64,000 bases of DNA from contig JACSRW010000029.1 in the NCBI GenBank assembly GCA_014879565.1, forward strand, positions 62,001-126,000. Direction: 5' to 3'. The notes under the pieces were generated by a model. It was not told where the DNA came from. It made no database searches and saw nothing but the letters and a program-made list of their open reading frames with translations. The stretch comes from Chitinophagaceae bacterium. GTDB lineage: Bacteria > Bacteroidota > Bacteroidia > Chitinophagales > Chitinophagaceae. The position numbers and the translations under genes are program-made. Shown here in pieces: positions 5,801 through 64,000 of the stretch; the first letter of the stretch is position 1, and every line of letters begins with the position of its first letter.

Positions 5801-6087
5801 GATTTCGAGCGAAGCGAGAAATCTTATCCCTTTATTTTAATTTTTTCCCTGTCATTCCGAACGCAGTGAGGAACCTTACTATTTGCCCTGCTCGCAGAAG
5901 CCGGTGTGAGATCAAGAGGGTGCCTATATTTTTTTCTTGCCGGAGCTGAAAGTGCGGGAACATAGTGAGGAACCTTACTATTTGCCCTGCTCGCAGAAGC
6001 CGGTGTGAGATCGAGAGGATGCCTAATTTTTTTTCTTGCCGGAGCTGAAAGTGCGGGAACATAGTGAGGAACCTTGCCTTTATCCCT
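5801..6087 (+). repeat. Right copy of the extragenic repeat block, expanded
   Basis: The palindrome at 5801-5823 and the following ten bases are identical to the left block at 5014-5046. GAACGCAGTGAGGAACCTT at 5859-5877 matches the left copy except for one base, and the last 25 bases (6063-6087) are identical to 5082-5106. Relative to the left block, two 99-bp units are inserted. Together the two blocks bracket the GIY-YIG gene in direct orientation. Confidence 0.8.
5871..6068. repeat. 99-bp tandem repeat, two units
   Basis: Units run 5871-5969 and 5970-6068 and differ at a few positions (for example ATCAAGAGGG versus ATCGAGAGGA). As 99 is divisible by three, the minus strand can be read as an open frame with a repeated 33-residue peptide containing PHYVPALSAPARKK. 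This looks like a by-product of the duplication and not a gene. Confidence 0.85.
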
Positions 6088-33334: not shown

Positions 33335-33394
33335 AAGCGGGATTTTGGAAACGGAAGATAGGGAAAAGACGCTATCATTCAGTTACAAGTAAGC

Positions 33395-33470
33395 AGCCAG
33401 AAGTCAGGAGTCGCTCGTTGGGGTACGACTACTAACTTCCAACTACTAACTGCTGTCTGCATAGTCGGTG
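33395..33470. repeat. Short-word repeat between the OPT and POT genes
   Basis: Contains ACTACTAACTTCC and AACTACTAACTGCTG, the same words as the hairpin at 23540-23570, with an imperfect opposite arm (CAGCCAGAAGTCAGGAGTCG, 33394-33413). Confidence 0.5.
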
Positions 33471-33490
33471 TTTCACATTAAAAACGTGTA

Positions 33491-35140
33491 CTAATTGACG
33501 CCTTTTTCCTTCATCACCCGGTTCAGCCATTTCAGCAACACAAAGAGGAAGAGTGCGGCGGCGCCCAGTAAAATGAAATTAAGCCAGAAGTAATTAGTCT
33601 TATTATCGTATTCATCCCATTTACTGGCCAGGATGCCGCTCAGTTTATTTCCGATGGAAGTGGAAAGAAACCAGCCGCCCATCATCAGCGAGGTAATACG
33701 AACGGGACTGAGTTTGGAAACCAGGGAGAGTCCCATGGGGCTGAGAAACAGTTCCCCGATAGTGATAACTCCATAACTGCCCACCAGCCACCAGACGCTT
33801 ACTTTTTCTGTGCCGTTATGACCGGCTTTTACCGCGGCCACCATAACCAGTACGGAAAGTGCGGAGATCAGTAATCCGAAAGCGATCTTGGTTGGGGTGG
33901 AAGGTTCTTTTCCCTTGCGCCGCAGCCAGGTAAAGAAAGCCACCACCAGCGGGGTGAGTGCAATCACCCAGAAGGGGTTAATGGACTGGCTCAGGCTGGG
34001 CAGCCAGGCCTGCACGGTTTCACCTTCTTTGGGAAGTTTATCCGGTGCTACATTTTTGAAATAAGAAGGATAGCCCAGTTCTTTAACCTCTTTACCGTTT
34101 TCCCGCACTTTCCGGAACTGATGGTCAAGTTTGGTTACCGAATCCAGTTTATAGGTGGTATTGGCCGGTTTGTCGGTTTGTTTTAGGGCGGTCAGTACCT
34201 TTCCTGACACCCCGCTTACTTCCCGGTCGGTATAGCGGCTGGCCCAGGTATTGAGGGCGGAACCGTTTTGTTTGAAGATGGCCCAGAACAGGATCACTAC
34301 CGCGAAGATGGCAAGCATGGCGCCCATGGCAGGACGTTCGTCGCGGCTGCTCCGGAGCAGCAATACCGTATAAAACACACATACAGGAATACAGGCGAAG
34401 ATGAAGGCATCGGTGGAGTTAGAATCAAAAATATACCCATCCGTGCCTTTGATAAACCAGCCAATGGCGCCAAACAGGATGGAAGGCAGGAGCACCAGGG
34501 CAAAAATCTGCCAGAGGGGCATGTCACCGGGTTTAAGCGGTTTGCGCACATCATAGGCTTTGTAATGGCGGGTGCCGGCAATAAAAGTGATTACCCCGAT
34601 AAACATACCCACCCCTGCGGCGGCAAAGGCGGCGCCCCAGCCGATCATGGTATACAGGGCGGCACCGAAAAAATTACAGATAAAGGCACCCACATTGATG
34701 CCCATGTAAAAAATATTATACCCCTCATCTTTCTGGTGCATGTGTTCAGGCGTGGAATACACATTGCCCAGCAGGGTGGAAATATTGGGTTTGAAGAATC
34801 CGTTGCCAATGATCACGAGGCTCATTGACACATAGAGCATCGTGATATTATGTATGCCCATGAGACAGTAGCCTGCACCCATCAGTAATCCGCCCAGGAT
34901 AATAGAACGGCGATAACCCAGATAACGGTCGGCAATCAGACCGCCGAGAAAGGGGGTGAAAAATACCAGTGCGATAAAAGTTCCGTACAGACTGGCGGAA
35001 TCTTTTTCATCCATATTAAATCCTTCAGTCGCGTCTTTCAGATACAGAGTAAAAATGCCGATCATCAGGTAATAACCGAATCGTTCCCACATTTCAGAAA
35101 AGAAGAGAAAGGGCAGGGCTTTGGGGTGTTTCTTCCACAT
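33491..35140 (-). CDS. POT family proton-dependent peptide transporter (copy 1)
   Basis: About 549 residues with 12-14 transmembrane helices. POT (PTR2) signatures are the helix-1 motif SEMWERFGYYLMIGIFTLYL, the FTPFLGGLIADRYLGYRRSIILGG segment in two pieces, and the helix NIFYMGINVGAFICNFFGAAL. It would bring di- and tripeptides in with protons. A soluble insertion of about 90 residues (around residues 300-390, with repeated KELGYP-type segments) between helices is shared with copy 2. The start (MWKKHPKALPF) matches the family N-terminus; the longer in-frame extension is not membrane-like. Tandem paralogue of 35276-36952. Confidence 0.92.
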   Translation of the reverse strand: MWKKHPKALPFLFFSEMWERFGYYLMIGIFTLYLKDATEGFNMDEKDSASLYGTFIALVFFTPFLGGLIADRYLGYRRSIILGGLLMGAGYCLMGIHNITMLYVSMSLVIIGNGFFKPNISTLLGNVYSTPEHMHQKDEGYNIFYMGINVGAFICNFFGAALYTMIGWGAAFAAAGVGMFIGVITFIAGTRHYKAYDVRKPLKPGDMPLWQIFALVLLPSILFGAIGWFIKGTDGYIFDSNSTDAFIFACIPVCVFYTVLLLRSSRDERPAMGAMLAIFAVVILFWAIFKQNGSALNTWASRYTDREVSGVSGKVLTALKQTDKPANTTYKLDSVTKLDHQFRKVRENGKEVKELGYPSYFKNVAPDKLPKEGETVQAWLPSLSQSINPFWVIALTPLVVAFFTWLRRKGKEPSTPTKIAFGLLISALSVLVMVAAVKAGHNGTEKVSVWWLVGSYGVITIGELFLSPMGLSLVSKLSPVRITSLMMGGWFLSTSIGNKLSGILASKWDEYDNKTNYFWLNFILLGAAALFLFVLLKWLNRVMKEKGVN

Positions 35141-52567: not shown

Positions 52568-53779
52568 TTAGAAAAGCCGTACAATGTAAAACACCCCGGC
52601 CGCCAGCAGGGCACTGATGGGAATGGTGAGAATCCAGGCCCAGATCAGGTTAATCGTCACCCCCCAGCGTACAGCGGATAAACGTTTGGTAGCGCCTACC
52701 CCCATGATGGAACCCGTGATGGTGTGGGTGGTACTCACGGGAATTTTCAGGGCCTCTGTAATAAACAGGGTAAGGGCCCCGGCTGTCTCAGCGGCCACTC
52801 CTTCAAAAGGGGTCACTTTGGTGATCTTGGTACCCATGGTTTTTACAATTTTCCAGCCTCCGCTCATGGTACCCAGACCGATGGCGGCATAACAGGAAAT
52901 CGGAACCCAGTTCGGCATATCATGAAAATCAGAAATGGTACCCCCGGCAATCAGGGCGGCTGTGATAATACCCATTACCTTCTGGGCGTCATTACCCCCG
53001 TGGCCGATACTGAAAGCGGCGGAAGAGATGAGTTGCAGGCGCTTGAACCAGTGATTGGCTTTATAGGCATTCAGGTTACTCAGGTAAAGGGAGAATATAG
53101 CCATGGTCAGCAGGATAAAGGCCAGCAGGATCCATTTGAAGTTCTTGGAATAGAATATTACCTGCCAAACATAATTCTCATAGTGGGTCTTTTTGGCCAG
53201 CACATCCTTGCTGAACTCCAGGTTGAATGTCAGGAAGCCAATTACGAAAATGATGACCCCGAGGGAAAAAATCTTGGAACTCCAGCCTTTCTTGAAAGAA
53301 CTCAGAAACCAGAGTGACATTAAAAAGGCCATGATCATACCTACCAGCGGAGCGAGGAAGATAAAACTGGCAGTTTTAATGATAACAGGAGAATTCACCG
53401 CGCTGAAACCACCGGCTGCAATGGCAGCGCCGGCAAAACCACCGATCAGGGTGTGGGAGGAAGAAGAGGGAATTCCCAGCCACCAGGTCAGCAGGTTCCA
53501 GGCAATAGCGGCAATCAGCCCCGAGAAAATCACTTTCATCATTTCTCCCTGCAGGATATGATCAGGTTTTACGGTTTTGGCTACGGTATCTGCCACTCCA
53601 TGGTCCTTGAAAATAAAAAAGGCGGCGGAGTTGAATACAGCGGCCCATAGCACTGCCTGGAAAGGAGTAAGTACTTTGGTGGAGACAACCGTGGCAATAG
53701 AGTTGGCCGCGTCGTGAAACCCGTTGATATAATCGAAGATCAGCGCGAGCGCGATGATCGTTATCAGGAATGTAGTCAT
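52568..53779 (-). CDS. pit: Inorganic phosphate transporter, PiT family
   Basis: 403-residue membrane protein with ten or more helices. The duplicated PiT signature is present: FDYINGFHDAANSIATVVSTKVL near the N-terminus and GGNDAQKVMGIITAALIAGG in the second half; WWLGIPSSSSHTLIGG and PVSTTHTITGSIMGVGATKRL also match. It imports phosphate (often as metal-phosphate) with protons or sodium. A DUF47 gene precedes it by 18 bases and is its usual regulator. A central hydrophilic part near residues 180-230 is longer than in E. coli PitA. Confidence 0.95.
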   Translation of the reverse strand: MTTFLITIIALALIFDYINGFHDAANSIATVVSTKVLTPFQAVLWAAVFNSAAFFIFKDHGVADTVAKTVKPDHILQGEMMKVIFSGLIAAIAWNLLTWWLGIPSSSSHTLIGGFAGAAIAAGGFSAVNSPVIIKTASFIFLAPLVGMIMAFLMSLWFLSSFKKGWSSKIFSLGVIIFVIGFLTFNLEFSKDVLAKKTHYENYVWQVIFYSKNFKWILLAFILLTMAIFSLYLSNLNAYKANHWFKRLQLISSAAFSIGHGGNDAQKVMGIITAALIAGGTISDFHDMPNWVPISCYAAIGLGTMSGGWKIVKTMGTKITKVTPFEGVAAETAGALTLFITEALKIPVSTTHTITGSIMGVGATKRLSAVRWGVTINLIWAWILTIPISALLAAGVFYIVRLF

Positions 53780-53797: not shown

Positions 53798-54448
53798 TTA
53801 AGCGTATTTGATGATAATGGACTCAATCACATTGCTGGCATCCTCACATTTGTCGGTCACGATTTCCATTACCTGGTAGATCTCTCTCTTTTTGATCACC
53901 TCTTTGGCATCCGGTTCGGTGGCAAAAAGACGTTCAATACTCATATCAAATACATCATCGGCCTGGTTTTCGAGGCTGTTGATTTTTACCAGGGCTTCGG
54001 TAATACTCCGCATATTTTTCATATCACGCAGTTCGGTTACCGCAATTTTTACCTGCTGACAGCCCTGTTCAATCAGCTCCGCGAATTTTTTAATGCCCGT
54101 ATCGTTCGGGTTGACACGGTAGAAGTTGATTTTTTTGGCGGAGGCATATATATAATCGGCGATATCATCCAGCGATGTGGCCAGGTAGTGAATATCTTCC
54201 CGGTCAAAAGGAGTGATAAAGTTCCGGCCGAGCTCGGTAAACAAGTTATGCGTCAGTTCATCGTTGGCATGTTCCAGGTCTTCAATCTGGGTTATAATTG
54301 CTGCTCTTTTGTCAAAGTCGGGTTCAGCCACCACCTCTTTGATTTTTGTTCCCATCTTGGAAACATTGTCTGCTACTTTTTCGAAGAGCTCATAAAACAC
54401 TTTGTTTTTTGGCATGAAGATCTTCAGAAAGGAATTCAATCCGGCCAT
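53798..54448 (-). CDS. DUF47 (PhoU-like) phosphate transport regulator
   Basis: 216-residue all-helical cytoplasmic protein of the DUF47/PhoU-like fold: FYELFEKVADNVSKMGTKIKEV, ITQIEDLEHANDELTHNLFTELGRNFITPFDREDIHYLATSLDDIADYIYA (in parts) with the metal-site E-x-x-x-D pairs typical of PhoU proteins, and KINSLENQADDVFDMSIERL. It precedes pit by 18 bases and probably controls its activity. Its 5' region faces the porin gene and contains a hairpin (ACCCGG...CCGGGT, near 54473) and a TAATTTCG box, one mismatch from the -7 consensus. Confidence 0.92.
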   Translation of the reverse strand: MAGLNSFLKIFMPKNKVFYELFEKVADNVSKMGTKIKEVVAEPDFDKRAAIITQIEDLEHANDELTHNLFTELGRNFITPFDREDIHYLATSLDDIADYIYASAKKINFYRVNPNDTGIKKFAELIEQGCQQVKIAVTELRDMKNMRSITEALVKINSLENQADDVFDMSIERLFATEPDAKEVIKKREIYQVMEIVTDKCEDASNVIESIIIKYA

Positions 54449-54541: not shown

Positions 54542-54596
54542 TTAATAATTAGATAATATAAAAATAAATTTGCGGTAACTATTTAGTAACAATTTG
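54542..54596 (+). promoter_or_regulatory. Five contiguous 11-bp repeats upstream of the porin (Pho-box-like)
   Basis: Units run TTAATAATTAG (54542), ATAATATAAAA (54553), ATAAATTTGCG (54564), GTAACTATTTA (54575) and GTAACAATTTG (54586). TAA stands at positions 2-4 of every unit, an exact 11-bp period. PhoB/PhoP-type regulators bind direct repeats of this spacing (TTAACA-like in Bacillus PhoP, TGTCA-like in Escherichia PhoB). The array lies between divergent DUF47 and porin genes and could control both. Binding is inference. Confidence 0.5.
54565..54572 (+). promoter_or_regulatory. Candidate -7 box for the porin
   Basis: TAAATTTG is an exact TAnnTTTG match within the 11-bp array, 44 bases before the ATG at 54617. 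An alternative, ACAATTTG at 54589-54596, would put the whole array upstream of the box, which suits activation better; the true start is undecided. Confidence 0.4.
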
Positions 54597-54616
54597 CGGC
54601 ACTTTAAACGGAAGAC

Positions 54617-55942
54617 ATGGGTAAACAGTTCGTAATAAAGGGCTTAATGACAGCAAGTCTATTGTTTGTCATAGGTATACAATCTAAGGGACAGCGTTAT
54701 CTCTCAGATATTGACTCTTCGTTTTTTATTCACGATACTGTAAGACCTGTGATCAAAAGGTTTGAAAATCTGCGTATTACCGGTTATATCCAGCCCCAGT
54801 ACCAGGCGGCTTCCTCCGAGGGAGCGCCATCTTACAGTGGTGGAAATTTCTCTGCCTATTCCAACAGCCGCTTTATGCTGCGCCGGGCGCGGGTAAAAAC
54901 AGACTATATCCTGCCCTCCGAAAAACAGTATCCCGTTGCCTTGTTTTCCTTTCAGATTGATGCAACCGAAAGGGGGGTGGTGGTAAGGGATATGTTCCTG
55001 AAATTATTTGAAACAAGACGCAACCTGTTTTCCATGACAGCGGGTTTATTCGCCCGGCCGTTTGGGTATGAAGTAAACCTGTCATCCGCTTTCCGGGAAA
55101 CCCCCGAACGGGGAAGGATGTCACAGATCCTGATGCCCACGGAAAGGGATCTCGGCGTCATGATCTCCCACGAACCACAGGATAAAAAGCATAGCACTTC
55201 CCGGTTTAAATTTGATATTGGCCTTTTTAACGGACAGGGCCTAACCGGCAGCACCGACTTTGACAGCCGTAAAGACCTGATATCACGGGTATTTGTTAAA
55301 CCGGATACCCGGAAAAAAGTGGAGATCACAGGCGGACTGTCATTATTACGCGGTGGATGGCGAAACGGGACCAAATATATCTATGAGACCGGCAAATTAT
55401 CCGGCGGCCAGAATGGATTTGTCGTGGATTCATCGGAAACCAACCTGGGAAAAACAGCGCCACGCCGGTATTACGGGGCCGATATTCAGGTAAAATGGAA
55501 ACATGGCTGGGGTGAAACGGAATGGCGTGCAGAATACTGGGCCGGTACACAGCCGGGAACTGCCGCCACTACCTTTAATCCCGGTTCACTTCCTTCCGAA
55601 AATGGCGTGCCCTTACCTACTTATATCCGGAAATTTGACGGGGTATTTCTGCTATTTCTTCAAAACATAGTTAATCGTAATAACCAGTTCATGCTGAAAT
55701 ACGACTGGTATGATCCCAATACAAAAGTGAAAGCCGCACAAATCGGGGCCGGTGGCAGCAATCTCACCAAAGCCGATATCAAATTTTCTACCGTTGGCAT
55801 CGGCTTCTCCCGCCAGCTCAACAGCCAGACCCGGCTGATCCTGTATTATGATATTGTCACCAACGAAAAAACCGTATTGACTGGTTATCAGCAGGATCTT
55901 TCTGATAATATCCTGACTTGCAGACTGCATTTTCGGTTTTAG
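54617..55942 (+). CDS. Phosphate-selective porin O/P-like outer-membrane protein
   Basis: 441-residue outer-membrane protein: signal peptide (ending SKG), then beta strands of the OprO/OprP porin family (FSAYSNSRFMLRRARVKTDYILP, NLFSMTAGLFARPFGYEVNLSSAFRETPERGRMSQI in parts, KWKHGWGETEWRAEYWAGTQPG) and a terminal strand ending in phenylalanine (LTCRLHFRF). OprP selects phosphate and OprO polyphosphate in Pseudomonas; here function is inferred from family and from the DUF47-pit neighbours it diverges from. Confidence 0.88.
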   Translation: MGKQFVIKGLMTASLLFVIGIQSKGQRYLSDIDSSFFIHDTVRPVIKRFENLRITGYIQPQYQAASSEGAPSYSGGNFSAYSNSRFMLRRARVKTDYILPSEKQYPVALFSFQIDATERGVVVRDMFLKLFETRRNLFSMTAGLFARPFGYEVNLSSAFRETPERGRMSQILMPTERDLGVMISHEPQDKKHSTSRFKFDIGLFNGQGLTGSTDFDSRKDLISRVFVKPDTRKKVEITGGLSLLRGGWRNGTKYIYETGKLSGGQNGFVVDSSETNLGKTAPRRYYGADIQVKWKHGWGETEWRAEYWAGTQPGTAATTFNPGSLPSENGVPLPTYIRKFDGVFLLFLQNIVNRNNQFMLKYDWYDPNTKVKAAQIGAGGSNLTKADIKFSTVGIGFSRQLNSQTRLILYYDIVTNEKTVLTGYQQDLSDNILTCRLHFRF

Positions 55943-55951
55943 ATAAACCGC

Positions 55952-56017
55952 TTAACATTTCGGTAATATTCCGTTCATCAACGGTTAACATGCCCGTAAC
56001 ACAGGGGTAACCCTGCA
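55952..56017 (+). promoter_or_regulatory. Six contiguous 11-bp repeats upstream of the TonB receptor (Pho-box-like)
   Basis: Units: TTAACATTTCG (55952), GTAATATTCCG (55963), TTCATCAACGG (55974), TTAACATGCCC (55985), GTAACACAGGG (55996), GTAACCCTGCA (56007). Five of six share (T/G)TAAY at the first five positions; the third is degenerate. They occupy nearly the whole gap between the porin stop and the -7-like CACCTTTG at 56022-56029, the right place for an activator. The 11-bp period and TTAACA core are those of PhoP/PhoB sites. Confidence 0.55.
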
Positions 56018-56021
56018 GAGA

Positions 56022-56029
56022 CACCTTTG
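56022..56029 (+). promoter_or_regulatory. Candidate -7 box for the TonB receptor operon
   Basis: CACCTTTG, one mismatch from TAnnTTTG, begins five bases after the last 11-bp repeat and 26 bases before the ATG at 56048. No -33 TTG is present, as expected for an activator-dependent promoter. Confidence 0.4.
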
Positions 56030-56047
56030 CGCCAAATTATACGTGTT

Positions 56048-58834
56048 ATGTATACGAGGCTGCGCATGTTTCTGATCTTACTCTTTGCCGGACTTTCCGC
56101 GGTGGCACAACAACCCACCCGCCTGACCGGTAAAGTCACCAATACCAAAAACGAACCCCTGGCCGGTGTAACTATTAAAATTACCGGGGCTGCCGGCGGA
56201 ACCACTACCGATCTGGAAGGCCGCTTTACACTGGTGCTGGCTCCCGGAAAAAAATATACACTTGAATTCACCACCGTTGGCTATGAGGCCAAAACAGTGG
56301 ATGAAGTGGAGGTAATGGCCGGTCAGGTGAATGAACTGAATATTACCCTCGAGGTAAAAGAAAAAACCGGCGATAATGTGGTTATCACCGCAAAAGCGTC
56401 CACTGCCCGCCGGGAGACCGTTAATTCGGTGATAGCTTTTCAGCGGAACACCAATACCGTCGCCTCCGTTATTTCCGCAGAGAGTATCCGCCGGTCACCC
56501 GACAGAAATACCGGGGAAGTATTGAAGCGTACCCCCGGTGCCAGTATCCAGGAAGGTAAATTTATTATCATCCGCGGGCTGGCCGACCGCTACAACCAGG
56601 CCATGCTGAACGGTATCCTGCTGACCAGTACCGAACCCGACCGGAAAACTTTTTCCTTTGACCTGATCCCTGCGGCTGTTATTGATAATATAGTAATCAA
56701 TAAAGCCTTTGTTCCGGAATATCCCGGTGAGTGGGCCGGCGGACTGATCCAGGTAAATACAAAAGATATTCCCTCCCGTAATTTCTTCAATATTCAGATC
56801 GGCAGCGGATTCAACACGCAGACGATCGGGAAAAAGTTTTACCAGGATCATTCTTCCAAAACCGACTGGCTGGGTTTTGACAACGGTACGCGTGCCCTGC
56901 CCCCCGGTTATACCCGCAAAGCGGCCTTTGATACGCTGTCCGGTGCCGACAAAACAGCCATCGGCAAGGCCATGCGCAATGCCTGGACACCCATTGAAAC
57001 GGCTGTGCCGGTGAATGTGAGCTTCCAGATGAATGGCGGCTTCAGCGGCAAACTTTTCGAAAAGAATATCGGGGGTACCCTGGGTATCAGTTACAGCAAA
57101 AATAACCGGTACCTCAAACTGCTGAACCAATCCAATGCCCTTTCAGCGAATGTGTTTACCGCTAATTATACGTATGATGATGACCGTTATGTGGAGGAAG
57201 TAACCCTGGGGGCAATCGGCAGCTTTACCATGCAGCTCAACTCGTTGAATAAGGTTTCCCTTAAGTCAATCATTAACCTGAATTCTCCCAGCAGTGTGAC
57301 CCGCCGGAATGGTATTGACTTTACCCGTTCAGAGGATATCACGGGTTCTGAACTGACCTTTAAACAAAACACTTTCTTTACGGTACAGGCAAGTGGTGAT
57401 CATGGGCTGGCCAAACCACTGAAACTGAAATGGTATGGCGCCTTCAACATCCTGGATGGCTATGTGCCGGATCAGCGCCGGATTGCCTATACCCGCCAGA
57501 CCGGCACACAGAATCCTTTTCGTCTGCTGATTTCCAACAGCCTTTCCCAGAGCAGCGGCAGCCGCATCTATCAGAGTCTCTCCGATTATATCTATACAGC
57601 CGGAGGGGATATGACCTATAGTTTCAACTGGCTGGGGCAGAAACAATCCCTGAAAGGTGGTTATATGCTGCAGATTAAAGACCGTTTATTTGACGCCCAG
57701 CTTTTTGCCAACTATTTGCCAACCGATAATCCCGTACTCACCTTGCTGCCGGCTGACCAGGTTTTTGCCCCGGAAAATTTCGGCGACGGCACCGGTAATA
57801 AATTCGGCTTTGACGCGATCAAGGGCCGTACCTTCCGTTACCTCGCCAATACCATTCTGAACGGTGGTTTCCTGCAGATGGATAACCAGTTTACCCGTAA
57901 CCTGCGTGTGGTATGGGGTCTTCGTGTTGAACATTTTGATCAGCTGGTGGGCAGTGTGAAGAAATGGGATCCCCGTCATTCCTATACCAAAGTGACGGAT
58001 TATCTCCCGGGTATGAATGCCACCCTAAAACTGGATCAGAAAACCAACCTGCGTCTGTCTGCCTCACAAACTGTGATCCGGCCCGAACTCAGGGAACTTT
58101 CCTTCCTGAATCTTTATGACTTTGAACTGAACGCTTCAGTGCAGGGAAATCCCCGGCTGAAACGAACCAAGATCACCAACCTGGACCTGCGCTACGAGTG
58201 GTATCCGAAAGCCGGTGAAGTATTTACAGCCGGTCTGTTCTATAAAAAATTTGATAATCCTATTGAGCAGCTCTTCAATGAAGGGATCGGCGGGGCCAGT
58301 ACCTTCAGTTATCAGAATGCCAAAGAAGCCACAGCCTGGGGAGCAGAGGTGGAATTCCGTAAGAAGCTTGATTTTCTCCCGGCCCTGAAAAACTTTACCC
58401 TGCAGGCCAACGCCTCATATATCAACAGTGAAGTAACTGATACCGTATTTAACATTAACCGCACCCTGCAGGGACAGTCACCCTATGTGCTTAACCTGGG
58501 TCTGCTTTATGATGTGGAGAAATCCGGTCTGAGTGCCACGCTGCTCTTTAACCAGGTGGGTCCCCGTATTTACCTGGTGGGTGATCTTACCTCGGGCGCC
58601 GGTTCACCGGATATTTATGAAGCTCCCCGGCCTCTGCTGGATTTTCAGATCAGCAAAAAAATCCTGCAGCGCAAGGGTGAACTCCGGATCAATGTCGCGG
58701 ATATCCTGAACAGCACCCAGTATTTCTATCAGAATGCAGGGGGTAAAAAGTCCCTGCAAAAAGGGGAGGATGCTTACCGCTTTACCCGCACGTTCGGCAC
58801 CACCTTCAGTTTCACTTTTAATTACTCATTATAA
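56048..58834 (+). CDS. TonB-dependent receptor with carboxypeptidase-like N domain
   Basis: 928-residue outer-membrane receptor: signal peptide (MFLILLFAGLSAVAQ), carboxypeptidase-regulatory-like domain (about residues 25-105, LTGKVTNTKNEPLAGVTIKITGAAGG in parts), plug (ESIRRSPDRNTGEVLKRTPGASIQEGKFIIIRGLADRYNQAMLNGILLTSTEPDRK in parts, IDNIVINKAFVPEYPGEWAGGLIQVNTKD) and a 22-strand barrel ending in FSFTFNYSL. No SusD gene adjoins; the next gene, 26 bases downstream, is a beta-helix lipoprotein. The ATG at 56048 is used; an in-frame TTG at 56027 lies in the -7 box. Located directly after the porin, preceded by the 11-bp array. Substrate unproven, perhaps phosphate-containing. Confidence 0.9.
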   Translation: MYTRLRMFLILLFAGLSAVAQQPTRLTGKVTNTKNEPLAGVTIKITGAAGGTTTDLEGRFTLVLAPGKKYTLEFTTVGYEAKTVDEVEVMAGQVNELNITLEVKEKTGDNVVITAKASTARRETVNSVIAFQRNTNTVASVISAESIRRSPDRNTGEVLKRTPGASIQEGKFIIIRGLADRYNQAMLNGILLTSTEPDRKTFSFDLIPAAVIDNIVINKAFVPEYPGEWAGGLIQVNTKDIPSRNFFNIQIGSGFNTQTIGKKFYQDHSSKTDWLGFDNGTRALPPGYTRKAAFDTLSGADKTAIGKAMRNAWTPIETAVPVNVSFQMNGGFSGKLFEKNIGGTLGISYSKNNRYLKLLNQSNALSANVFTANYTYDDDRYVEEVTLGAIGSFTMQLNSLNKVSLKSIINLNSPSSVTRRNGIDFTRSEDITGSELTFKQNTFFTVQASGDHGLAKPLKLKWYGAFNILDGYVPDQRRIAYTRQTGTQNPFRLLISNSLSQSSGSRIYQSLSDYIYTAGGDMTYSFNWLGQKQSLKGGYMLQIKDRLFDAQLFANYLPTDNPVLTLLPADQVFAPENFGDGTGNKFGFDAIKGRTFRYLANTILNGGFLQMDNQFTRNLRVVWGLRVEHFDQLVGSVKKWDPRHSYTKVTDYLPGMNATLKLDQKTNLRLSASQTVIRPELRELSFLNLYDFELNASVQGNPRLKRTKITNLDLRYEWYPKAGEVFTAGLFYKKFDNPIEQLFNEGIGGASTFSYQNAKEATAWGAEVEFRKKLDFLPALKNFTLQANASYINSEVTDTVFNINRTLQGQSPYVLNLGLLYDVEKSGLSATLLFNQVGPRIYLVGDLTSGAGSPDIYEAPRPLLDFQISKKILQRKGELRINVADILNSTQYFYQNAGGKKSLQKGEDAYRFTRTFGTTFSFTFNYSL

Positions 58835-58860: not shown

Positions 58861-60327
58861 ATGAAAAAGTACCTTTTCTTATTGACAGCAGTAGCAGCCC
58901 TTGCCACTACCGGTTGCCGCAAGATTGAGACAGACGGAGAGATCCAGGTAGTGGTGGTGAATGGCGGTGGTTCCGGTACTACAACCGGTGAAACCATCAC
59001 CCTGCAGGGTCGTATCAGTGCCGATACTATCCTCCGTAAGAAAAATACCTATATCCTGAAGGGGCTGGTGTATATGGTGGGTAATAAAACCATGACCATT
59101 GAAGCCGGTACGGTGATCAAAGGTTCCTACAGTGGTTCAGATGTGGCCGCCCTGATTATTACCCGCGGTTCTAAACTGGTAGCGCAGGGTACACCCGGTG
59201 AGCCGATTGTTTTCACCTCTGCTTCTCCCAATCCCCAATCCGGTGACTGGGGCGGTATTGTTATGCTGGGTAAAGCCCCCATCAACTCCAGTTTTAACGG
59301 TATTCCCGGTCTGCTGCAGATTGAAGGCGGGGTGGATAATGCGAACGGAGATGGCCTGGCCGGTTCCGGAGATGCCGCTGTTCCCACACCCGTTCCCAAT
59401 GATAACTCCGGGGTGATTTCTTACGTACGTATTGAATATGCCGGTTATGCCTTCCAGCCCGACAAAGAGCTGAACAGTCTTACCATGGGGGGTGTAGGAA
59501 GCGGTACCACCATTGATCACGTACAGGTGGCCTATGCCAAGGATGATGCCTTTGAATGGTTTGGCGGTACCGTAAATGCCAAATACCTGATCGCCTACAA
59601 AACACAGGATGATGATTTTGACACTGATAACGGCTATAGCGGTAAGGTTCAGTTTGGCCTGGTGCTGCGTGATTCCCTGATTGCGGATATCTCCAACTCC
59701 GAGGCTTTTGAAAGTGATAATAACGCCAGTGGTACAACCGCTACACCCAAAACCTCCGCGATTTTCAGCAATATCACGGCTATTGGTCCCCGTGCCACAT
59801 TGAGCAATGTGGGCAGCAGCCTGTTCCGGGGGGGTGCACATATCCGTCGTAATACCGGTATTTCCATTTTCAATACCATCTTCCTGGGCTGGCCCCGTGG
59901 AGTGGAAGTGGATGCCACAACCGGTACCTCTACTGCCCTCAATATTGAAGACAGTACGCTGCGTCTGCGGAATATCACCATAGCCGGTTGCGCCACTCCC
60001 ACCCGTTTCAGCGGCACGGCCGGTGCAACGATCACCAATGACGCGGCTTTCAGCAGCTGGTTCACCAACACTTTCTACAACAACGATATTCTGACGAATA
60101 CTTCAGATGCCAAACTGATTCAGCCCTTCAATTATACGGCTCCGGATCCTACTCCTTTTGGTGGTTCCGGCGGAAATCAGAAGATCCTGAATGGTGGCAG
60201 TTTCACAGATGCCAAATTTACCGGCGATACCTTCTTTGATAAAACAGCCACTTTCCGCGGCGGTATTGCTCCGGCAGGCGAACTCTCCACCTGGTGGAAA
60301 GGCTGGACCAAGTTTAATTTCAACTAA
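58861..60327 (+). CDS. Beta-helix-like surface lipoprotein, partner of the TonB receptor
   Basis: 488-residue lipoprotein: signal with lipobox ATTGC (cysteine near residue 19), a short N-terminal acidic segment, then a repetitive right-handed-beta-helix-like body (TITLQGRISADTILRKKNTYILKGLVYMV, TMTIEAGTVIKGSYSGSDVAALIITRG, GVISYVRIEYAGYAF, TIDHVQVAYAKDDAFEWFGGTVNAKYLIAY, each as parts of a series). Its central part contains DDAFEWFGGT and DDDFDTDNGYSG, acid-rich loops that could bind metal or phosphate-metal. It follows the receptor by 26 bases and is followed by a terminator, so it is the second gene of the operon. Function unrecognised; surface ligand capture is inference. Confidence 0.8.
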   Translation: MKKYLFLLTAVAALATTGCRKIETDGEIQVVVVNGGGSGTTTGETITLQGRISADTILRKKNTYILKGLVYMVGNKTMTIEAGTVIKGSYSGSDVAALIITRGSKLVAQGTPGEPIVFTSASPNPQSGDWGGIVMLGKAPINSSFNGIPGLLQIEGGVDNANGDGLAGSGDAAVPTPVPNDNSGVISYVRIEYAGYAFQPDKELNSLTMGGVGSGTTIDHVQVAYAKDDAFEWFGGTVNAKYLIAYKTQDDDFDTDNGYSGKVQFGLVLRDSLIADISNSEAFESDNNASGTTATPKTSAIFSNITAIGPRATLSNVGSSLFRGGAHIRRNTGISIFNTIFLGWPRGVEVDATTGTSTALNIEDSTLRLRNITIAGCATPTRFSGTAGATITNDAAFSSWFTNTFYNNDILTNTSDAKLIQPFNYTAPDPTPFGGSGGNQKILNGGSFTDAKFTGDTFFDKTATFRGGIAPAGELSTWWKGWTKFNFN

Positions 60328-60811: not shown

Positions 60812-60820
60812 GAGAAATTT

Positions 60821-61123
60821 CAAGAACCAAATAACAAGAACCAACCCTTCTGCCCATGAGGATTGAAAGTATGACAATTGGTTCTTCGGTTCTTGGCTTT
60901 TGGTTCTTTTTTAAGAAGTTCCAAGAACCAAATAACAAGAACCAGCCCTCCTGCCCATGAGGATTGAAAGTATGACAATTGGTTCTTCGGTTCTTGGCTC
61001 TTGGTTCTTTTGTAAGAAGTTCCAAGAACCAAATAACAAGAACCAACCCTCCTGCCCAAAAGAATAAAAAACATGATAATTGGATCTTCGGATCTTGGTT
61101 CCTGGATCTTTGTTCTTCAGATC
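60821..61123 (+). repeat. 101-bp tandem repeat, about three units
   Basis: Units begin CAAGAACCAAATAACAAGAA at 60821 and 60922; a diverged third begins at 61023. Each carries inverted arms (AAGAACC ... GGTTCTT), so single strands can fold into hairpins. Since 101 is not divisible by three, the successive units shift reading frame, which argues against a coding role. Related to 47590-47715. Confidence 0.8.
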
Positions 61124-62367: not shown

Positions 62368-63417
62368 TTAGTCCTTTTTGGCTTCCAGCGTAAACCCAAA
62401 TGTGGTGCCGACCCCTTCTGTACTGCGTACATGGATGGTCTGATTATGGGCTTCAATAATATGTTTACAGATGGCCAGCCCCAATCCGCTGCCGGTAACA
62501 TCCTGACTCCGCCCGGTTTCGGTCCGGTAAAACCGCTCAAAAACCCGGGTCAGGCTTTTTTCCGGAATACCCATGCCATCATCACTGATTTCCACGAGGA
62601 TATGACGTCCGTCAGTTTTATAAATACTGGCAGTAATGCTGCCTTTATTCTTTCCGTACTTCACTGAATTTTCAACAAGATTGATCAGCACCTGACGGAT
62701 TTTCTCTTTATCGGCAAATACCGTAAGTGGCGACTCACAGCCTTTTTTAATCTGGCAGCTGATTTGTTTTTTATCCGCCTGTCCGGAAAGGCTTTCATAT
62801 ACATCCCGGATCAGGTCCTGGATAATAAAATTCTGTTTGTATAGAATCAGTTCTCCTCTTTCCAGCCGGGAGATCTCATCCAGATCATTCAGCAGGTTAC
62901 CCAGTCTTTCCACATTCTTTGCTGTTTTTTCCAGGAATTTACGGTTCACCTCAGGGTTAGCAAGTGCACCGGACAACAGGGTATCCACATAACCCTGGAT
63001 GGCAAAAACCGGGGTTTTGAATTCGTGGGAGAGATTCTGCAAAAACTCCTTACGGAACTGTTCATTACTCCTCAGCAGCTCAAGTTCCTCCTCATTCCTG
63101 CTGGCCCAGGCTTCCACATCCGCCCGTACATCATCAATACTTTTCTGAGGCAAAACATATTTGTAATAGGTTTCCTCTCTTTTGGTGGCCTTGGTTTTAT
63201 AAATAAACTTGTAAATGAGTTTGATCTTACGGTAAATGAACCGTTCCAACATGAAATAAATCAGGAAATACCCGCCAACAAAAAGAATTACCAGAGATCC
63301 AAGGGCCCACCAGATACTTCTTTCCACCGCTAAAACCAGGATACTCTCCGGGATGGCCAGTATCAAGGCCGTAAAGGCAGCGATTTGTTTCGGGGAAATA
63401 TTTTTGACAGAGAACAT
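62368..63417 (-). CDS. Sensor histidine kinase (PhoR-like)
   Basis: 349-residue membrane histidine kinase. Two TM helices at the N-terminus (about residues 10-52) have almost no periplasmic loop, so it senses through the membrane or a partner, not through an external domain. The HisKA domain has SHEFKTPVFAIQGYVDTL with the phosphorylated histidine, and the ATPase has the N box (NLVENSVKYG), G1 (ISDDGMGIP) and G2 (GSGLGLAICKHI). This compact form resembles PhoR-type kinases lacking PAS. It is 55 bases downstream of the response regulator, in the same direction. Confidence 0.9.
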   Translation of the reverse strand: MFSVKNISPKQIAAFTALILAIPESILVLAVERSIWWALGSLVILFVGGYFLIYFMLERFIYRKIKLIYKFIYKTKATKREETYYKYVLPQKSIDDVRADVEAWASRNEEELELLRSNEQFRKEFLQNLSHEFKTPVFAIQGYVDTLLSGALANPEVNRKFLEKTAKNVERLGNLLNDLDEISRLERGELILYKQNFIIQDLIRDVYESLSGQADKKQISCQIKKGCESPLTVFADKEKIRQVLINLVENSVKYGKNKGSITASIYKTDGRHILVEISDDGMGIPEKSLTRVFERFYRTETGRSQDVTGSGLGLAICKHIIEAHNQTIHVRSTEGVGTTFGFTLEAKKD

Positions 63418-63472: not shown

Positions 63473-64000
63473 TCACAGTTCGAACTTATAACCGACGCCT
63501 TTCACTGTTGTAATGCAGTCTATACCCAGTTTCTGGCGGATTTTGCGGATATGTACATCAATAGTGCGGTCGCCCACGATCACATCATTTCCCCAGACCT
63601 GGTTGAGGATTTCATTGCGGAGAAAAACACGGCCGGGTTTCTGGGCCAGCAGGTGCAGGAGTTCAAATTCCTTCTTGGCAAGGATGATTTCCTCTTCCCC
63701 CACTTTAACCAGGAAACGTTCCGGATCAATAGTGAGGTTTCCGAGGGTCAGTACCCGGACTTCTGTTTTATTAAGCCGGCGGAAAAGGGCGTTTACACGA
63801 CTGATAAAGACTTTCGGGCTTACCGGTTTGCTTACATAATCATCCGCCCCGGTTTCCAGCCCCCGTATCTGGGTGCCCTCATCATTGACAGCCGTAAGAA
63901 AAATGATCAGGGTTTCTTTAAAGGCAGGCTGGGTACGTAAAATTTCACAGACTTCCACCCCCGTTTTTTTAGGCATCATCACATCCAGTACCACCAGGTC
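63473..64000 (-). CDS. PhoB/OmpR-type response regulator (partial)
   Basis: Response regulator cut by the right window edge; about 176 residues remain and the first 45-50 are missing. The receiver phosphoacceptor lies in LDVMMPKKTG, followed by the conserved T and K (FLTAV, SKPVSPK). The winged-helix DNA-binding domain shows KKEFELLHLLAQKPGRVFLRNEILNQVW and RTIDVHIRKIRQKLG ... VKGVGYKFEL, characteristic of OmpR/PhoB proteins, which bind 11-bp direct repeats. With the kinase it is the likely controller of the 11-bp arrays at 54.5 and 56 kb, but this is inference. Confidence 0.92.
   Translation of the reverse strand, partial: DLVVLDVMMPKKTGVEVCEILRTQPAFKETLIIFLTAVNDEGTQIRGLETGADDYVSKPVSPKVFISRVNALFRRLNKTEVRVLTLGNLTIDPERFLVKVGEEEIILAKKEFELLHLLAQKPGRVFLRNEILNQVWGNDVIVGDRTIDVHIRKIRQKLGIDCITTVKGVGYKFEL

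Follow-up and report, generated by a model that had tools for sequence, protein, structure and literature searches.

Gene content and repeat array of the receptor locus

The window (the whole 64-kb stretch of DNA analyzed here) carries genes for a Pit phosphate permease and a DUF47 protein, a divergent outer-membrane porin, a TonB-dependent receptor, and a lipoprotein, with a histidine kinase and a response regulator 2-4 kb beyond the lipoprotein and the regulator 3.1 kb past its end (Table 1). The porin yielded no Pfam match at E 1e-3, and the receptor matched PF07715, PF13715, PF13620, PF14905, and PF00593. The lipoprotein is present in 84 of 117 genomes of the family; its predicted structure (pLDDT 83.5) has pectate-lyase-like beta-helices as its nearest solved structures, a weak likeness (best E 3.6e-4, low TM-scores).

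Table 1. Features at the receptor locus, with positions in the window
Feature	Position	Strand	Remarks
Pit phosphate permease	52568..53779	-	Pfam PF01384
DUF47 / PhoU-divergent protein	53798..54448	-	PF01865; divergent from porin
Weaker operator (predicted), porin promoter	54542..54597	+	TTAATAATTAG ATAATATAAAA ATAAATTTGCG GTAACTATTTA + 8 + TTTG
Outer-membrane porin	54617..55942	+	OprP-like by position
PhoB operator array (predicted)	55952..56017	+	TonB receptor promoter; six direct repeats of 11 bp, putatively three dimer sites
-7 box CACCTTTG (consensus TAnnTTTG)	56022..56029	+	TTTG exactly 8 bases past last unit
TonB-dependent receptor	56048..58834	+	start 56048 or 56066; plug, carboxypeptidase-like, and barrel domains
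Lipoprotein, predicted beta-helix (pectate-lyase-like)	58861..60327	+	26 bases past receptor, same strand
Histidine kinase, PhoR candidate	62368..63417	-	HisKA, HATPase_c; synteny
OmpR/PhoB-family response regulator, PhoB candidate	63473..64000	-	225 aa; extends beyond window end

Between the porin and receptor genes, six 11-mers follow one another head to tail without gaps, starting at 55952, 55963, 55974, 55985, 55996, and 56007 and reading, in order, TTAACATTTCG GTAATATTCCG TTCATCAACGG TTAACATGCCC GTAACACAGGG GTAACCCTGCA. Five of the six begin with KTAAY, all in phase. A preliminary description of this DNA had reported six contiguous repeats, five with a start of this type, and both the sequence and simulation bear it out: 400 first-order Markov windows of equal length contained at most three of six units (in 32 windows), and none reached four. 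The odd unit is the third, with a TTCAT start; TCAY-type units are a recurrent variant, 24 being counted among the second to fourth units from the promoter across the window and the score-passing named loci.

When at least four in-phase units of six were demanded, this was the sole array in the window on either strand. In the genome to which the window belongs (3.43 Mb in 44 contigs, 99.5% complete), a four-unit pattern allowing up to one mismatch occurred here only, and a pattern of two units, eight bases, and TTTG occurred once without mismatch, again at this array. With up to one mismatch, the two-unit pattern was found at 16 places, array included, versus 18 for the reversed pattern, so that its one-mismatch matches are noise. 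The array was not reported by Tandem Repeats Finder at a score of 40. Strict TAACA pairs showed no genome-wide excess of the 11-bp spacing (4 of 45 matches over seven spacings), a test that was too strict and in which 10-bp repeats on contig C3 swell the other spacings.

Other repeats were seen as well. Contig C3 has a run of TAACAG-type repeats (33352-33517), mostly 10-11 bp apart and mostly on the reverse strand, that does not follow the phosphate format. Three in-phase TTAAC units on the reverse strand of contig C6 (126684-126710), preceding an outer-membrane protein gene with TACATTTG, were considered as a second target and dropped, having a spacer of 9 and no match to the model described below. 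Short tandem repeats in the window fill 23 listed rows; tandem arrays with 101- and 99-bp units lie at 60813-61111 and 5865-6075, and several 7-bp repeats (e.g., TTGGTTC and GTGGAAA) occur elsewhere.

Promoter geometry in relatives

The predicted +1 of the receptor promoter lies near 56034. Since the Bacteroidota -7 box occupies -12 to -5 (PMC9723704, in part) and the nearest unit ends 8 bases before TTTG, the stretch from about -38 to -17 is taken up by the two nearest units, which would there replace the -33 element. The same arrangement is conserved before the receptor in relatives. Twenty were fetched, 19 of them with a receptor start (L069 ends at the contig end), and with four units at a spacer of 8, 18 of the 19 scored at least 18/20, L076 being weak at 15/20. 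The bases between the unit cores vary, and the place and phase of the array stay. When the spacer from the last unit to TTTG was left free between 3 and 15, 8 was best in all 20 receptor promoters, the window included; L065 has TTCG in place of TTTG.

A wider set consisted of the 67 of 80 named loci in which the receptor start could be placed, at least two of which (L295 and L298) were training loci for the model; relatives are in any case non-independent samples. When spacers from 2 to 12 were allowed, 8 was best in 54 of these promoters and another value in 4, while 6 had no array and 3 no TTTG; 10 of the 67 lacked an array of at least 16/20 at a spacer of 8, three of these for want of TTTG. 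Distances between KTAAY sites concentrate on multiples of 11 (117 pairs at 11, 81 at 22, 53 at 33, 27 at 44, and 16 at 55), which account for 294 of the 431 pairs separated by 60 bases or fewer; no other distance between 5 and 60 has more than 11 pairs. The reverse strand of the same promoters also has small excesses at 11, 22, and 33 (7, 13, and 7 pairs). Among KTAAY sites lying 15-75 bases before TTTG, 206 of 248 are in phase 8 mod 11.

Counted from the promoter, 26 arrays have four units, 2 have five, 17 have six, 6 have seven, 1 has eight, and 2 have ten, in a sample of related sequences restricted to arrays of at least four units that score 16/20 or more over four units. The suggestion in the preliminary description that six units make a long array by the standards of such systems is thus only partly right, as four to seven units are present in 51 of the 54 arrays counted for this promoter. 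Even numbers prevail (46 of 54), a preference spotted only after counting; they would be expected if PhoB dimers take unit pairs. The unit consensus is (G/T)TAACATTNCG, also given as KTAACATTNCG, with positions 9-11 loose. In 266 units from the named promoters, positions 6-8, which played no part in unit selection, are conserved (A 0.68, T 0.61, and T 0.67); positions 1-5 are strong but served to select the units.

Several traits by which a PHO box is recognized can be read from these promoters: tandem 11-nt direct repeats, about seven conserved and four looser positions per unit across the 266 units, and placement beside a promoter (its start site itself predicted) in lieu of the upstream element. 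A further trait, location before pst or other phosphate-starvation genes, was found in relatives and not in the window's own genome.

Genes preceded by the array in relatives

A model of four units, 8 bases, and TTTG was built from sequence only, using 19 receptor promoters, that of the window included. In the window's own genome, the best 150 of 767 preliminary candidates were scored and gave three matches at E up to 10, all at the receptor/porin locus; the third is the porin promoter, whose array is in phase with the same spacing (15.2 bits, E 0.07). Across the family, 106 of 114 genomes had a match at E 0.05 or better; chance would account for about 6 if the rough E-values are right.

No array was found past the lipoprotein in the window, though some relatives have one there. 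In five cases (L338:5933-5984, L341:5931-5982, G056, G042, and G001), the lipoprotein has an array of its own directly in front, and it can thus be a separate transcription unit in some relatives.

Forty further matches not beside a lipoprotein match were picked by eye among the matches listed, several others being left out and some of those picked turning out to be related to the same receptor. Eight precede porin-pstS-pstC-pstA operons (in L152, pstB and phoU come next), one a porin start at a contig end (L166, assigned by eye from the translation), and one a porin alone. Two precede a PlcP-like metallophosphoesterase with a glycosyltransferase, one PhoX with MauG, and one a PAP2 gene, and seven precede no recognized phosphate gene. 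The largest target group, which is not phosphate-specific by itself, is that of TonB receptors and SusC-like proteins (19 matches), two with a phytase and two with SusD and GDPD; the first gene at L174 was assigned through its SusD neighbor.

Loci were also chosen by protein similarity to PstS, with a query taken from the array-bearing locus L152. PstS was present in 10 of 60 genomes, and an array precedes pst at 9 of these 10 loci: seven are strong model matches of at least 19.7 bits (G040, G045, G030, G026, G035, G018, and G054), one is weak (G014, 12.2 bits), and one (G005) is an in-phase array at a spacer of 8 seen by eye and not reported by the model. The G013 pst locus has no array. Enrichment near phosphate genes of relatives, which the preliminary description had set beforehand as a check, was thus observed at pst, PhoX, phytase, GDPD, and PlcP operons. 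In the window's own genome, the PstS search found nothing at E 1e-20; with that and with model matches at one locus only, its own link to phosphate rests on the Pit and DUF47 genes and the PhoB-PhoR pair.

Beyond the family, the pattern recurs across the phylum. Matches at E 0.001 were found in 47 of 198 genomes, 40 of the 47 outside the family, and at 27 of 28 phylum loci (all but L270) a homolog of a reference-set protein lies within 1.5 kb. The reference set held the receptor, porin, pst, PhoU, MauG, and other proteins, and at some loci the homolog may not be the gene directly following the match. A spacer of 8 was seen by eye outside the family in Adhaeribacter aquaticus (L351) and in a Flavobacteriales MAG (L353).

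The nearby regulator and the reading of the array as a PhoB operator

The preliminary description had placed a PhoB/OmpR-type regulator with its kinase at 62.4-64 kb, and the regulator emerges as a PhoB candidate by its recognition helix, its orthologs, and its adjacency to array targets. In 60 genomes, a single match to it per genome reaches E 1e-60 or better. A PhoB is expected to combine a receiver with a winged-helix effector bearing a PhoB-type recognition helix, and this combination is present: the effector domain matches that of E. coli PhoB (E 4e-20), the recognition helix reads DRTIDVHIRKIR versus DRTVDVHIRRLR in E. coli PhoB, and among the best 30 orthologs RTIDVHIRKIRQ is exact in 22 and altered by I/V changes only in 8. 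When the full-length regulator is compared with solved structures, RegX3 rather than PhoB comes out best. The kinase yielded only HisKA and HATPase_c in Pfam at E 1e-3; E. coli PhoR has a PAS domain between its membrane segments and HisKA.

A genetic link to pst, phoU, or pit genes or to array targets, likewise expected of a PhoB, was also found. In 17 of 60 genomes, no more than 11 kb separates the regulator from the lipoprotein, an array match, or pstS among the matches listed, where at most 0.66 would be expected, the 11-kb limit having been chosen after the coordinates were seen. It sits beside a pst-phoU operon in G040, and G003 and G051 have a receptor-lipoprotein-glycosyltransferase-PlcP-PhoR-PhoB cluster. 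Autoregulation was looked for: no model match precedes the regulator gene in the window's own genome, and an array match directly before it was found in G056 (23.3 bits) and, weakly, in G009 (13.5 bits). The same search for arrays gave other weak matches, at L224 and L229.

In E. coli, PHO-box geometry is defined relative to a -10 hexamer, and Bacillus subtilis PhoP boxes have a TTAACA-like core. The Bacillus core is close to the TTAACA of the array, and both are direct repeats of one kind. Like the E. coli PHO box, which has 11-nt direct repeat units with a CTGTCAT core (PMC4415409, in part), the array consists of 11-nt head-to-tail units that, in relatives, stand before pst and phosphatase genes, and the regulator helix is nearly the same. 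Unlike in E. coli, the core is KTAAYATT rather than CTGTCAT, four to seven units are the rule among the arrays counted, and the fixed distance of 8 bases is to the TTTG of a Bacteroidota -7 box. The PhoP boxes of Bacillus and of Streptomyces coelicolor (GTTCACC; PMC4415409, in part) belong to other phyla, promoters, and regulons, and the unit consensus here runs on to ATT.

Within the Bacteroidota, Bacteroides fragilis PhoB (BF1576) binds a 512-bp fragment of the pst promoter, and a phoB mutant shows lower expression of the pst genes and of the phosphate/sulphate permease BF3715; binding was to the fragment, with no repeat or consensus defined in the part of PMC3547664 available. The PUSIV/phoBR cluster of Flavobacterium johnsoniae comprises OprP, PhoR, PhoB, a TBDT, and the pectin-lyase-superfamily lipoprotein FII, and the receptor and FII lipoprotein, but not OprP, are strongly induced under phosphate depletion (PMC8115612, in part). 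PhoX with MauG, a phytase with a receptor, PlcP, and a glycosyltransferase are also on its phosphate-induced list. The window has the same kinds of genes, and the two receptors share Pfam domains; gene order differs, and the likeness is one of gene content. The words "motif," "promoter," and "Pho box" are absent from the main text of PMC8115612. As far as the accessible open-licence texts go, we found no definition of a Bacteroidota PHO box; one may have been described elsewhere.

We consider it very probable that the array is a PhoB operator, that is, a PHO-box array for the receptor and beta-helix lipoprotein that takes the place of the -33 element. A PhoB/PhoP-type operator for this pair had been the central proposal of the preliminary description; regulon, regulator, and spacing support it, and from these we infer control by phosphate. 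In the mechanism we propose, the kinase would drive PhoB into its phosphorylated form, for which the units would be tandem half-sites. When phosphate is scarce, PhoB dimers would settle on pairs of 11-bp units, head to tail and on one helix face, so that six units could seat three dimers. The two units nearest the promoter would assume the role of the -33 element, from which PhoB might recruit RNA polymerase (class II activation), switching on the receptor and lipoprotein next to the Pit permease. The pair is probably an outer-membrane system for phosphorus compounds.

Other OmpR-family regulators bind direct repeats too. Conceivably, then, a regulator other than that at 63.5 kb binds the array in response to phosphate or a related envelope cue; M. 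tuberculosis PhoP, for instance, is reported to act on 7-bp motifs with a 4-bp spacer, each genome has 10 to 137 related candidates (not all of them regulators), and the own-genome phoB lacks a model match in front. We regard this as improbable given the PhoB-like recognition helix of the 63.5-kb regulator, the 17 genomes out of 60 in which, among the matches listed, it lies near array targets (at most 0.66 expected), and the arrays directly before its gene in G056 and, weakly, in G009.

TonB receptors and SusC-like proteins are often under iron or sugar control, and 19 of the 40 further matches precede such genes, as they would if the array were the operator of a non-phosphate system that matched phosphate genes by chance. 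That explanation is very unlikely, however: the recognized nonreceptor targets are pst, PhoX, PlcP, and PAP2, phytase or GDPD follows some of the receptors, and 9 of the 10 pst loci chosen by PstS similarity carry the array. Least credible of all is the idea that the repeat arose by chance or is neutral and regulates nothing. Although the window is rich in short tandem repeats, four units arose in none of the 400 simulated windows, and place and phase are kept in relatives even where the bases between cores vary. Reading the array as a PhoB operator accordingly remains our preferred explanation.

The principle of the PHO box is already known; what appears to be new is its Bacteroidota spelling, the fixed geometry, the regulon, and the excess of four- and six-unit arrays. 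A broader and more tentative proposal, to which we give somewhat less than even weight, is a code across the Bacteroidota in which KTAACATTNCG units in even numbers (mostly four or six) end 8 bases before TTTG and PhoB replaces the sigma-factor contact at -33, reading out TonB/SusCD phosphorus uptake, phosphatases, lipid remodeling, and small RNAs towards phoR. If the operator geometry is fixed, the sequence could yield lists of phosphate-controlled genes in Bacteroidota, among them orphan receptors, lipoproteins, and candidate small RNAs. This matters because Bacteroidota recycle organic phosphorus and the substrates of their TonB-type uptake systems are mostly unknown. The promoter would also offer a simple setting for studying an activator together with the unusual Bacteroidota sigma factor.

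Two array matches, at L160 (reverse strand, 5996-6051) and L165 (2987-3042), have no gene found behind them. In both, from genomes of one genus, an intrinsic terminator follows within about 110 bases (CCGCTTCAT loop ATGAAGCGG, then a T run), and the arrays point to the 3' end of a phoR gene with phoB beyond. Both are candidates for small RNAs under phosphate control, and L180, and perhaps L173, seem to resemble them.
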